A program made the position numbers and the translations under genes. Under the pieces are notes generated by a model. The model was not told where the DNA came from. It was given only the letters and a program-made list of their open reading frames with translations, and searched no databases. A stretch of 14,122 nucleotides of DNA, from contig JAUWTC010000016.1 of NCBI GenBank assembly GCA_030609785.1, positions 1 through 14,122 on the forward strand. Reading direction: 5' to 3'. Positions 3,532-7,438 of the stretch are shown here, piece by piece. Source of the DNA: Holophagae bacterium (lineage in GTDB: Bacteria; Acidobacteriota; Thermoanaerobaculia; Thermoanaerobaculales; Sulfomarinibacteraceae). Position 1 is the first letter of the stretch, and the number at the start of each line of letters is the position of its first letter.

Positions 3532-4508
3532 AATAAGCGCCTACACCACATTGGTGGACTCCACCCGTGTTTGTCATCCTTGCGGCGCCGCGCTGTCAAG
3601 AGGACATAATCGCTGGGGAGAACATCTTCTCGGATCAGAATTTTTTCAAAGGCGATGAGAAGGGGGAGAATCTTACGGCCGGTAGCATCGTCCTCAAAAT
3701 GACCGGCGATGCCGTGAAGTAATGGGTCGAGGAGTGAGCCTCCGGTCATGCGTACCTCCTCTACCGCCAGGAAACGGTTGGCAATCGCCAGAAGGTCGCT
3801 GCTCCTGATGGCCTCAGACGGATCGTCGGCGACGACTTCTTCAAACGTCGGTCGCCAGGCGTCCCGGCACAACTGTCCCTTGAGATCTGTACACAGTCGT
3901 TCAGGAAGAGCGCGCCGTACAGCAGTGGCGATCTCGATCTGTCGATCCGTGAACTGCAGCCTATCGGGACCGACGTACTCCCGCATGAAAAACAGTCCCG
4001 CGGGAGTCAGACTCTTGTTGATCTCGGCAAAGAGTCTCTCCAGCCCACGGATGTGATGCAACGTGCCGACCGCGAAGATCAGGTCGAAGGTTGATTCCGA
4101 GTCGAGGCTGTCTTGTTCCAGGTCCATTCGGTGATATCGGAGAATCTCTCCCAGCCCGAGGCGGTCCGTGAGTTCCTTCTGAGTGACCAGAAGGTCCTGG
4201 CTAATATCGACCACGGTGACCTCCCGGAATCGACCCGTGCGGGCAAACTCGTTCGCCGGAGCAGTCTCGCCATTTGAGCAGCCGAGCGACAGGGCTCGGA
4301 GGGTCGGGCCTTCTGCCGGGTCTGGAATTCGAGACATGATGCTCTCGAGCCACGGTGTACTTCCGAATGCGGCCTCCATCTGGTAGGCGGATGCGATTTC
4401 CAAAGCCTCCCAGAAAACCTTGAAACCGCCAACGGCATAGACCTCGGCGGAGGAAGACCATTTTTCTTCGACTCTGCTGATCCGTCGAATGTCGTCATCA
4501 TCGTTCAT
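3516..4508 (-). CDS. Class I SAM-dependent methyltransferase, substrate unknown
   Basis: The protein has 330 aa from the ATG at 4508. This start is chosen over ATG 4532 because AGGGGGTC lies about 6 nt upstream of it. Motif I LSLGCSNG (73-80) is the SAM-binding glycine loop. VVDIS (99-103) carries the acidic residue after strand 2, and FDLIFAVGTLHHI (141-153) is the post-II region typical of methyltransferase type 11/12 folds. REYVGPDRLQFTDRQ (176-190) matches a signature seen in glycan- and natural-product-associated methyltransferases, as far as I recall. The remaining C-terminal half is not recognised. It follows the LTxxQ gene by 92 bp and ends at the rplU promoter. By eye it is less GC-rich than its neighbours, which could mean later acquisition. 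The methyl acceptor cannot be read from the sequence. Confidence 0.8.
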   Translation of the reverse strand: MNDDDDIRRISRVEEKWSSSAEVYAVGGFKVFWEALEIASAYQMEAAFGSTPWLESIMSRIPDPAEGPTLRALSLGCSNGETAPANEFARTGRFREVTVVDISQDLLVTQKELTDRLGLGEILRYHRMDLEQDSLDSESTFDLIFAVGTLHHIRGLERLFAEINKSLTPAGLFFMREYVGPDRLQFTDRQIEIATAVRRALPERLCTDLKGQLCRDAWRPTFEEVVADDPSEAIRSSDLLAIANRFLAVEEVRMTGGSLLDPLLHGIAGHFEDDATGRKILPLLIAFEKILIREDVLPSDYVLLTARRRKDDKHGWSPPMWCRRLLRAES

Positions 4509-5111: not shown

Positions 5112-5594
5112 CTAAGAATTCTGGGCCCCGAACAGGGCCGTCAGGTCGTCGTCAGTGATGTTGTCGAGAACGTCGAAGTCGGGAATGCCGTCTTCGGCCA
5201 ACAAACTCTCGGCCTGAGCCAGGATCTCCTCGATTTCAATCTCCGGCCGGGGTGTGGGCACCGGCGCCGGGCCGCTCATGTGAACGACCATTCCGGTTCC
5301 GACGGCAAGAGTGATGGTGGCGGCTGCGGCCAACAGGGGGCTCAGCCACCGTCGCCGGACGGCGAGAGGCGCCGCCGACGAGTAGGGCAGGCGGTCGAGC
5401 ACCTTTTCCAGGTGAGCATCCCAATCCGGCGTTTCCTCTTCCATCGCTCGGCGCCGGTTTTCTACGTGGTCAAGAAACAGGTTCACGGAGCGGCGGCAGC
5501 TGACGCACTCTTCGAGGTGGGCCAGTCGCTCGGGCTCCAGAGGGATCCCGGCGGCGGCCGAGGCCAGTTCGTGGTCGTCGAGGTGGCGGCTCAT
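5112..5594 (-). CDS. Membrane anti-sigma factor with zinc-finger (ZAS-type) domain
   Basis: The protein has 160 aa. HLEECVSC at residues 26-33 gives the H-x3-C-x2-C zinc motif of ZAS anti-sigma domains, with an upstream HLDDHEL helix. The cytoplasmic domain is followed by one transmembrane segment at about 84-104 (LSPLLAAAATITLAVGTGMV). The acidic periplasmic tail (107-160) has no recognised sensor fold. Such proteins hold their cognate ECF sigma factor inactive at the membrane until a signal releases it. The start overlaps the sigma stop by 4 bp (ATGA), so the two are translationally coupled, the usual arrangement of a sigma/anti-sigma pair. Confidence 0.85.
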   Translation of the reverse strand: MSRHLDDHELASAAAGIPLEPERLAHLEECVSCRRSVNLFLDHVENRRRAMEEETPDWDAHLEKVLDRLPYSSAAPLAVRRRWLSPLLAAAATITLAVGTGMVVHMSGPAPVPTPRPEIEIEEILAQAESLLAEDGIPDFDVLDNITDDDLTALFGAQNS

Positions 5595-6190
5595 CGGATG
5601 TCTCCCAATTCTCTGCGCAGGCGATGGACGGCGCGGTGCAGCAGGGTTTTGACCGTTCCCGTGTGAACGTTGAGGCTGTCGGCGATCTCTTCCAGGTTCA
5701 TCTGGGCGTAAAAGCGGAGGCGAAAGACCTCTCGTTGACGGTCCGACAGACCCTGTTCGGCCTCCTTGAGACGGGAGATGGTCTGGCGTTGACGGGCCTG
5801 CTCTTCAGGCCCGGCCCGCTCGTCCGGAATGTCCAGCGTGGGTGAATGGTCGTCGCCATCCGCCTCGACCACGCGCAAACCTTCACGTCGTCGCTTTCGG
5901 AGGAGGTCCAGGCAGGTGTTGATGGCTATTCTCGTCACCCAGGTCGAAAAGGCCGCTCGCCCGTCGAAGGCGTCGAGGCGGGTGTAGGCCTTGATCAGGG
6001 CCTCCTGTGAGGCTGCGTCGGCCTCGTCGGCACCGACGTATTGTCGGCACACCAGCCACACGCGGCGCTGGTGTCGTGTGACAAGGACCCCGAAGGCTTC
6101 GCGATCCCCACCTTTGGCACTGTCGACCAGTTCCTTTTCGTCGAGAGGGGGCTGGTGGCGTGCGGCAGTCATCATCGTCGCTCGTTGCAC
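5591..6190 (-). CDS. ECF (sigma-24/RpoE-like) RNA polymerase sigma factor
   Basis: The protein has 199 aa. Sigma-2 occupies about residues 28-102: AFGVLVTRHQRRVWLVCRQY, then DEADAASQEALIKAY (core-binding and -10 region), then FSTWVTRIAINTCLDLLRKRRR. Sigma-4 occupies about 145-195: LSDRQREVFRLRFYAQMNLEEIADSLNVHTGTVKTLLHRA, a clear helix-turn-helix for -35 recognition. No sigma-3 is present, as expected for ECF factors. The start is not secure: ATGs at 6190, 6175 and 6172 are all possible and none has a strong Shine-Dalgarno sequence. It heads the unit with the anti-sigma and LTxxQ genes. I could not identify an autoregulated ECF promoter upstream. Confidence 0.92.
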   Translation of the reverse strand: MQRATMMTAARHQPPLDEKELVDSAKGGDREAFGVLVTRHQRRVWLVCRQYVGADEADAASQEALIKAYTRLDAFDGRAAFSTWVTRIAINTCLDLLRKRRREGLRVVEADGDDHSPTLDIPDERAGPEEQARQRQTISRLKEAEQGLSDRQREVFRLRFYAQMNLEEIADSLNVHTGTVKTLLHRAVHRLRRELGDIR

Positions 6191-6220
6191 ATCAGATGGA
6201 CGACCAAAACGGCTGAAGAG

Positions 6221-6248
6221 TTGACATCAGTTCATTATGGCGTATCGA
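6221..6248 (+). promoter_or_regulatory. Candidate promoter for the structured RNA / nadK leader
   Basis: The plus strand has a perfect -35 TTGACA (6221-6226), a 16-bp spacer and a partial -10 TATCGA (6243-6248; 3 of 6). Predicted initiation near 6253-6256 coincides with the 5' side of the outer stem of the structured region. The weak -10 keeps confidence moderate. The site lies in the divergent gap, inside the presumed leader of the sigma gene on the other strand. Confidence 0.42.
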
Positions 6249-6274
6249 TGTAGGAAACCCTCTCCGACGGGGCG

Positions 6275-6347
6275 TGCCAGATATGGCTTTCTTCATCGAG
6301 CAGACTTTCGGGCAACGGAGTCGTAGCGAAGAAAGCCATGCCTGGCA
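6275..6347 (+). repeat. Inverted repeat 1 (20-bp arms)
   Basis: Arms 6275-6294 and 6328-6347 pair over 20 positions with one A-C mismatch (6281/6341) and one G-U (6282/6340). In the 33-base loop, GACT (6303-6306) can pair with AGTC (6319-6322), extending the hairpin. Confidence 0.85.
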
Positions 6348-6351
6348 ACCC

Positions 6352-6402
6352 TCGGCGGTCGCGCCGGCAAACGAGTTTCCCGGTTGGGTCGTAGGCCGCC
6401 GA
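6352..6402 (+). repeat. Inverted repeat 2 (two-part stem)
   Basis: TCGGCGGTC (6352-6360) pairs with GGCCGCCGA (6394-6402) with one G-U. Inside, CCGG-x-AAAC (6364-6372) pairs with GTTT-x-CCGG (6375-6383), with one C-C mismatch, making a second helical segment. Confidence 0.7.
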
Positions 6403-6403
6403 T

Positions 6404-6466
6404 GTCCTTTTCCGGAGGGGCGGTCCCTCTCCCGTTTCGATAATTGCGGCCCCTCCGGGAAAGGAC
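6404..6466 (+). repeat. Inverted repeat 3 (18-bp arms)
   Basis: Arms GTCCTTTTCCGGAGGGGC (6404-6421) and GCCCCTCCGGGAAAGGAC (6449-6466) pair at all 18 positions with one G-U (6411/6459). The loop is 27 bases and holds a pyrimidine-rich stretch. No T run follows on either strand, so it does not look like a terminator. Confidence 0.85.
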
Positions 6467-6475
6467 TGAGCGGGG

Positions 6476-6489
6476 GCGCGCTTACGCGC
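6476..6489 (+). repeat. Small hairpin GCGCG-CTTA-CGCGC
   Basis: Five perfect G/C pairs enclose a CTTA tetraloop immediately downstream of inverted repeat 3. It is likely part of the same structured RNA. A further small hairpin, TGGG-AAA-CCCA, is at 6506-6516. Confidence 0.6.
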
Positions 6490-6571
6490 TACCGAAGGCC
6501 GGGGCTGGGAAACCCATCGAAACGCCCTCCTTTCCGGTACTATGGAGACCTCGGTGGAATGGGGGTGCTTG

Positions 6572-7438
6572 GTGAAGCGGCCGGAACGCGTCGGTGTGGT
6601 TCTCAAAGGTACGAGCAGTGAGGCGGTCGAACTGGGGCGCCAACTGCTGGTCGAACTGGAGCGGCTCGGGATCGAGGCCGTGTTGGATCAAGAAAGCTCG
6701 AAAACACTCGACTGCCCCGGTGAGGTGTCCCGGGCGGACCTTGCCTCCGTCACGGATCTGGTGGTTGTCCTCGGCGGGGATGGCACGCTGCTGTCGGTAA
6801 CTCGGAGTAATGTGGGTGAAACTCCGATCCTCGGCATCAACTTGGGCACGCTGGGTTTCCTGACCGAGCATTCGGTGGACCGGCTCTTTCCCCTGCTTCA
6901 TGCCGTCCTGGACGGTGACTTTGAGGTGGAAGAGCGGCAACGGCTGGAGGTCACGGTCGAGCGCCCCGGGCGCCAACCCATCGTCCGTCGAGCGCTCAAC
7001 GATGTGGTGATCAACAAGTCGGCCTTGGCGCGAATGGTCGTCCTTTCGGTGCACGTGGATGAGGCCTATCTCAGCCGATTCAAGGCCGATGGCTTGATCG
7101 TGGCGACGCCAACCGGGTCGACCGCCTACAACCTTTCCGCCGGTGGCCCGATCGTCTACCCGACAGTCGCCGTGGTGTTGGTAACACCGATTTGCCCTCA
7201 CGCCCTGACGAACCGGCCGATCGCCCTGCCCCTGGACTCGGTGATCGACATCCGTCTGGAGAGTCGTTCCGAGGAAGTCTATTTGACCCTGGACGGTCAA
7301 GAAGGATTTCCCCTGACGCCGCGAGACCTGGTTCGAATCCGGCACTGTTCGGAACCGGTTCGCCTGGTGACGGACCCGGGCCAATCTTATTTCCACGTGT
7401 TGCACCGGAAATTGAAGTGGGGAGAACGAGGAGGCTGA
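6572..7438 (+). CDS. nadK: NAD kinase
   Basis: The protein has 288 aa from GTG 6572. NadK phosphorylates NAD to NADP in the cytoplasm. The diagnostic GGDGT motif is at residues 68-72, followed by GINLGTLGFLTE (88-99), NDVVI (143-147), the ATP/NAD site ATPTGSTAY (178-186) with SAGGPIVYP, and DGQ (241-243). All are in order, so the gene is intact. GTG 6572 is preferred over ATG 6542 because GGGGGT sits 6 nt upstream and the protein then begins KRPERVGVVLKG, close to the usual NadK start. The longer start would overlap the end of the structured region. It is first in a nadK-tamB-Omp85 unit, and its 3' end overlaps tamB by 22 bp. Confidence 0.95.
   Translation: MKRPERVGVVLKGTSSEAVELGRQLLVELERLGIEAVLDQESSKTLDCPGEVSRADLASVTDLVVVLGGDGTLLSVTRSNVGETPILGINLGTLGFLTEHSVDRLFPLLHAVLDGDFEVEERQRLEVTVERPGRQPIVRRALNDVVINKSALARMVVLSVHVDEAYLSRFKADGLIVATPTGSTAYNLSAGGPIVYPTVAVVLVTPICPHALTNRPIALPLDSVIDIRLESRSEEVYLTLDGQEGFPLTPRDLVRIRHCSEPVRLVTDPGQSYFHVLHRKLKWGERGG

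Follow-up and report, generated by a model that had tools for sequence, protein, structure and literature searches.

A dispersed, structured intergenic repeat in one family of uncultured acidobacteria

The window, a stretch of 14,122 nucleotides at the start of contig JAUWTC010000016.1 from a Holophagae bacterium, carries an ECF sigma factor gene and, divergently from it, nadK (Table 1). The intergenic segment at 6251–6509 is one copy of a dispersed intergenic repeat rather than an RNA gene tied to nadK alone. Towards either end of the element, conservation declines gradually, and the first 7–8 bases of the window copy differ from the family consensus AGAGCGCC. The direct repeat GGAAACCC at the junctions of the window copy is not relied on, since a scan for target-site duplications revealed no excess. 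At L067, partial 5´ ends of the element stand in tandem within the 110 bases before position 583, with a unit of ~54 bases, which suggests that the element also includes some 18–24 bases upstream of AGAGCGCC. The alignments of nadK mostly begin at residue 3–18, and its true start may be the GTG near 6572.

Table 1. Coordinates of the repeat copy, its structural parts and the neighbouring genes in the window.
Feature	Position	Strand	Basis or remark
ECF sigma factor gene, divergent neighbour	5591..6190	-	Name from the earlier note and reading of the translation
Conserved repeat body, one copy	6251..6509	+	Alignment of 67 copies; covariance model R1 score 234.3 bits, the copy itself being among the R1 training rows
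GGAAACCC	6253..6260, direct repeat at 6508-6515	+	Possible short duplication at the junctions of the window copy
Domain A: P1 (6268-6272 with 6349-6354) closes long hairpin P2	6268..6354	+	Covariation
P2	6276-6277/6345-6346 and 6280-6294/6328-6342	+	Within domain A; covariation
Linker, conserved, without covarying stem; GTAG adjoins P3	6355..6393	+	Conservation line of the alignment
Domain B: P3 (6394-6397 with 6497-6500, GGCC/GGCC) encloses P4 and P5	6394..6500	+	Consensus fold
Long hairpin P4 (6403-6420 with 6451-6467)	6403..6467	+	Covariation
Hairpin P5 (6471-6478 with 6487-6494)	6471..6494	+	Covariation
nadK, downstream neighbour	6542..7438	+	Matches in 57 of 59 genomes, its own included

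The predicted fold energy of 6250–6545 is -143.1 kcal/mol, and on each strand none of 200 dinucleotide shuffles folds as well (z = -4.06 on the plus strand and -3.60 on the minus strand), which agrees with the view of an earlier note, made from the letters of the window, that its stems are unlikely by chance. That note placed three long inverted repeats and small hairpins at 6253–6535 and closed them with complementary outer segments. Two of the long repeats are P2 and P4, and a small hairpin is present as P5; the second long repeat, taken as ~6352–6402, is complementary but lies outside the covarying consensus. The outer segments pair on paper, but 6523–6535 falls beyond the conserved element, which spans only ~6251–6509, and within the segment 6269–6274 the bases 6269–6272 are already taken by the covarying stem P1, so that the consensus closers are P1 and P3. 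By eye, CGGCG at 6352–6356 can also pair with CGCCG at 6397–6401 as an alternative to P1 and P3, outside the covarying consensus. Three of the 46 consensus pairs are mismatched in the window copy (6281/6341, 6403/6467 and 6474/6491), and a variant of P5 that is ~27 bases longer is present in other copies of the 67-copy alignment. The note did not recognise RNase P, tmRNA, 6S, SRP RNA or a familiar riboswitch in it, and no known family was found in Rfam: the window has no match at gathering thresholds, and lax thresholds return only microRNA hairpins that are sub-threshold and at chance level. Nor was a description of the element found in openly licensed papers.

The repeat is abundant in the genome of the window (G000; 2.8 Mb, 457 contigs, ~80% complete). 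A BLAST search of 6200–6545 against this genome yields at least 84 aligned pieces, at least 46 of them at E 1e-7 or better, from the best 40 of 127 first-look candidates and with the window copy included; that copy aside, the pieces at E 1e-7 or better are 69–86% identical. In a similar query of 28 genomes, in which up to the best 27 candidates per genome were scored, the three other species of the genus gave at least 29, 27 and 27 pieces and a sister genus at least 12 weak ones. A two-motif pattern, its matches counted in full, occurs 86 times in G000, and 60, 49, 32, 62, 72, 26 and 34 times in G001, G002, G003, G004, G005, G016 and G013, respectively, while the reversed pattern, as a control, matches 0, 0, 0, 0, 1, 2, 1 and 12 times in the same order. 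The pattern reports some copies twice and includes a few matches that are not elements; it recovers 50 of the 67 copies in the main alignment, 8 of the 12 copies from G004 and 17 of the 22 from G005 and G016. From its count and its sensitivity, we estimate that G000 holds roughly 100 copies.

Two covariance models delimit the distribution, both searched with stricter filters and with the best 20 (R1) or best 13 (R2) candidates per genome scored. R1, built from the 67 genus copies, detects the repeat in 16 of 99 genomes at E 0.01, of which 15 are among the 20 genomes of family f1 and one, elsewhere, is borderline (0.0096). R2 was built from A4, an alignment of 22 copies of genus g3 that had themselves been found with R1, because alignment A3 (502 columns) is too wide for a model. 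At E 0.001 it matches 15 of the 148 genomes of the class, including 14 of the 20 of f1; the one match outside f1 lies in the neighbouring family and spans a single hairpin. Within f1, G008, G011, G012 and G017 have no match to either model. The repeat is thus found in one bacterial family and nowhere else convincingly. Among the matches listed for a 22-base pattern in named genomes, all but one lie in four metagenome-assembled genomes titled Thermoanaerobaculales or Holophagae. Contig QNAI01000232.1 (L212), labelled Verrucomicrobia, bears two strong copies (3891–4146 and 2731–2987; 247 and 197 bits) and may be misbinned DNA. Phages and plasmids gave no match to the element, and viral contigs gave none to the exact 22-base pattern, which fits only 30 of the 67 copies.

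The covariation alignment contains 67 copies from G000–G003. It was drawn from 128 profile matches, 70 of which reach at least 130 bits and near full length, a selection that under-represents damaged copies. Six helices with 46 pairs in all make up the consensus, and 28 of these pairs change on both sides. Standard pairs fill 95.2% of the paired cells, compared with 85.3% when the 3´ letters are shuffled and 38–52% when the partners are slid. Across the 67 copies, 286 cells are double-sided compensatory, against a shuffled mean of 67.9 (sd 9.5), and none of 500 shuffles attains any of the five observed values. The main helix of P2 (93.2% paired) and P4 (93.5%) change on both sides in 10 of 13 and 13 of 15 pairs, respectively, as do 2 of 5 pairs in P1 (99.4%) and 3 of 7 in P5 (95.5%); P3 hardly varies, so covariation lends it no support of its own. 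Compensatory changes have preserved the fold, as the earlier note had anticipated for a multi-hairpin structure. In G005 and G016, which represent genus g3, the stem sequences are quite different from those of the genus copies, and despite this divergence the motifs GGGGCGTGCC, GGCAACCC-CGG, AGGCCGCCG and GAAGGCCGG recur. GTAG is present in 60 of the 67 genus copies, 5 of 12 copies in G004 and 1 of 22 in G005 and G016. Within family f1, the fold is kept more than the letters.

A protein-coding gene, which the note had named as an alternative to be looked for, was rejected. Each of the six frames is open in 14–24 of the 67 copies, compared with 6–12 in shuffles, none is open consistently, and the copy lengths are spread evenly over all three remainders. 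A simple codon-usage gene caller, trained on the window, placed genes on both sides of 52 of 77 copies; the four arrangements of flanking gene orientation occur 14, 14, 12 and 12 times, and 3 of the 52 copies overlap a gene by more than 30 bases. The copies are dispersed regardless of gene orientation. The search for a gene recurring beside copies found just translations of the element and a few orthologous or small groups, with no unrelated recurrent gene. Pairs or clusters of copies within ~2 kb, direct or inverted, are seen at L044, L052, L059, L068 and L073.

The element at the window site lies between a TTGACA block, seen by eye in G000, G001, G003 and G004, and the start of nadK, a placement that would suit a cis-regulatory leader RNA or a discrete small RNA for nadK. 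The note proposed a discrete RNA belonging between the sigma factor gene and nadK. Instead, tens of copies per genome occupy unrelated intergenic sites in both orientations, which largely refutes a role of this kind. The nadK site of G001 has no element, the copy at that of G003 is damaged and lacks ~75 bases of P2, and a strict promoter scan reported none at the window site. We regard a leader or small RNA for nadK as very improbable.

A degenerate array of CAGNNN/CCGNNN hexamers lies directly 3´ of the element, within 0–100 bases, and is strongly strand-specific in the genus (L039–L075 and others). On the strand of the element, the hexamer motifs reach 30.2 and 14.4 per kb in the first two 50-base bins, compared with 1–4 elsewhere. 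The array occurs on both sides of the element in G005 and G016 and was not seen in G004, and its first reading as a retroposon tail was set aside on these grounds.

The stems show a wobble pattern that favours the plus strand. In the 67 genus copies, with pairs derived on the plus strand, G-U outnumbers A-C in the paired columns by 165 to 30, and plus-strand G-U is still in excess (32 to 17) with a structure derived from the minus strand. The plus-strand excess that the note had observed therefore holds over the genus, but it is gone with the minus-derived structure in G004 (minus G-U 20, A-C 18) and in G005 and G016 (21 and 21). For pairs predicted from both strands, a test that covered the genus and G005/G016, the ratios are 31 to 10 and 21 to 7, respectively. 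The plus strand is the more stable in just 32 of 67 copies folded singly; it is thus the wobble pattern, rather than stability, that supports the strand claim.

The hairpin types are combined in many ways. The stem types of P2 show no significant association with those of P4 (p 0.09); the neighbouring P4 and P5 types are associated (p 0.001), and so are the P2 base types and P5 types (p 0.0075), which speaks against free assortment. Two contig ends of G005 (L167:114–358 and L169:121–372) appear to be two versions of one locus. They are near-identical on both sides, in P2 and in P5, whereas the two P4 arms and part of the linker differ between them. The simplest reading of this difference is ectopic gene conversion, with segmental duplication as the alternative. 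That both P4 arms differ together also fits a mutational origin of the compensatory changes, in which template switching between hairpin arms copies the palindrome and selection on a folded strand plays no part. However, P1, whose arms lie ~77 bases apart around P2, covaries as well, and copying of one arm from the other would not be expected to leave more G-U than A-C on one strand; we consider arm copying improbable as the source of the covariation.

Site occupancy differs between sister species. Ten flanks of G000 were searched in three sister species; seven matched, at 17 loci, all of them without an element scoring above 60 bits. The view that the copies are ancient and fixed was dropped after this result. 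Both flanks matched in ten comparisons, at five sites, again with no element above 60 bits. L312, which contains a run of N, was set aside, and an intact element is absent from all nine clean comparisons, two of which keep remnants (L309, 3´; L318, 5´). The first empty sites are too diverged to define junctions, and L222 keeps an apparent remnant of the element.

Where orthologous copies exist, they differ in conservation. Among the matches listed, at loci mostly fetched because they hold the element, 16 orthologous pairs at ten loci were compared. In four pairs, at four of the ten loci, the element is 0.90–0.95 identical and the flanks are 0.76–0.87, with the 100-base bins beside the element ranging from 0.55 to 0.93. 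The other 12 pairs are 0.69–0.82 identical, which is comparable to random copies (mean 0.755 over 2211 pairs, 95th percentile 0.816). The four conserved pairs argue for local constraint or for recent exchange between species, and the better conservation of the element than of its flanks suggests that it is of use to the host at these loci. All copies could, by extension, be dispersed elements with a host function, such as protein-binding sites or transcript-processing signals, whose structure is kept in place, and the maintenance of the structure across genera is in line with such a function. Against it, the sites in sister species often lack an intact copy, the copies show no orientation preference, and the orthologue set was drawn from the matches listed, at loci fetched for the most part for holding the element. 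A general host function thus appears unlikely, if worth keeping in view, and we favour a mobile-type origin of the repeat.

Recent transposition should leave some near-identical pairs of copies, and short-read assemblies may hide them. Within a genome, no such pair is observed: the maximum identity among the 67 aligned copies is 0.87, two cross-species pairs aside, and the highest values elsewhere are 0.87 in G004, 0.91 in G005 (possibly one locus twice) and 0.90 in G016. The scan for target-site duplications, of low power given uncertain ends and diverged empty sites, found a match of six or more bases in 36 of 66 copies and in 113 of 200 mismatched controls.

Candidate movers were sought among protein domains. 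Among 13 genomes, RVT_1 reverse transcriptase, sought as the mark of a retroposed element such as a group II intron or retron, was detected only in G010, which carries the element, and not in the incomplete assemblies G000–G009, G011 and G012. Y1_Tnp occurs in 10 of the 13 and was not found in G011 or in G000 and G001, both incomplete; one of the 20 Y1 loci fetched (of 28 matches) has a copy of the element. At that locus, the Y1 transposase gene of G002 (L110:903–1916) lies ~220 bases from an element copy at 2139–2397. A single-strand transposase acting in trans is a possible but unproven mover.

Dispersed structured copies would also result if the guide-RNA scaffold of an IscB/TnpB-type system had spread and its nuclease had not. 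HEARO RNA has multi-copy structured forms without an ORF, and the copies described here are likewise numerous, structured and free of a neighbouring ORF. However, no HEARO (RF02033) or other plausible Rfam match appears even at lax thresholds, the TnpB domain was found in none of nine genomes in a search with working controls, and the IscB RRXRR domain in none of nine in a search in which no control rang. We give the scaffold reading hardly any weight. It would also set the repeat beside HEARO and omega RNAs, which PMC9755519 presents as structured RNA tied to a mobile system.

Among known systems, the closest are the BOX and RUP elements of Streptococcus pneumoniae. According to PMC3049150, the S. 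pneumoniae genome holds 125 BOX and 110 RUP copies that are predicted to form RNA stem-loops, BOX being modular; about half of the insertions are common to all strains, and the elements are judged probably parasitic. Compared by description, the acidobacterial repeat resembles them in copy number, intergenic placement and modularity. The same paper reports terminal inverted repeats, target-site duplications and enrichment between convergent genes for BOX and RUP, whereas the acidobacterial repeat has ends that fade gradually, no excess of target-site duplications in our low-power scan, and 12 of 52 copies between convergent genes, a raw count without background. It further differs from BOX and RUP, as they are described there, in its two-domain fold of 250 bases with heavy compensatory change. 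By analogy, the best reading is that the repeat would work like BOX elements.

Other comparisons are more partial. REPs, according to PMC3733652 and PMC8266576, are high-copy extragenic palindromes of 20–40 bases that TnpA-REP (RAYT) recognises as folded single-stranded DNA. Like REPs so described, most genus copies of the repeat (60/67) have GTAG beside a stem; unlike them, the repeat is ~259 bases long, carries GTAG in 1 of 22 copies of genus g3, and is present in two genomes (G000 and G001) in which no Y1 transposase was found. The intergenic regions of Borrelia plasmids contain five separate structured repeats, three of them closely linked to protein genes, according to PMC2674063, and these share with the acidobacterial repeat many compensatory stem changes.

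Taken together, the element probably represents a family of structured repeats that are intergenic, of mobile type and non-autonomous, with copies of ~250 bases. It is presented here as a new family of structured repeats with dispersed copies, unusual in the size of its two-domain fold, the strength of its covariation, the strand bias of its wobble pairs and the lack of sharp ends. We infer that an enzyme supplied in trans would have recognised the folded plus strand, as RNA or single-stranded DNA, and would have spread the copies, which would later have evolved mostly by ectopic gene conversion and loss. The window copy would then be an insertion between the sigma factor gene and nadK, possibly inside the nadK leader, with no required role for nadK. 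A bolder and rather doubtful proposal is that the repeat is a new class of mobile element, in which the 250-base two-domain fold of one strand is recognised and structure is kept above sequence; its mover would be a not-yet-known enzyme, either an unrecognised single-strand recombinase or one acting by an RNA-mediated route. In this proposal the hosts would have taken the element into use in part, a view suggested by those orthologous copies whose conservation is unusually high.

Tens of copies per genome, over several genera, provide enough covariation to establish how a dispersed bacterial repeat folds and to indicate one strand, here in an uncultured acidobacterial lineage. The example cautions against taking every covarying structure next to a single gene for a riboswitch or a small RNA gene, and the repeat provides a specific target in the search for the protein that recognises such folds.
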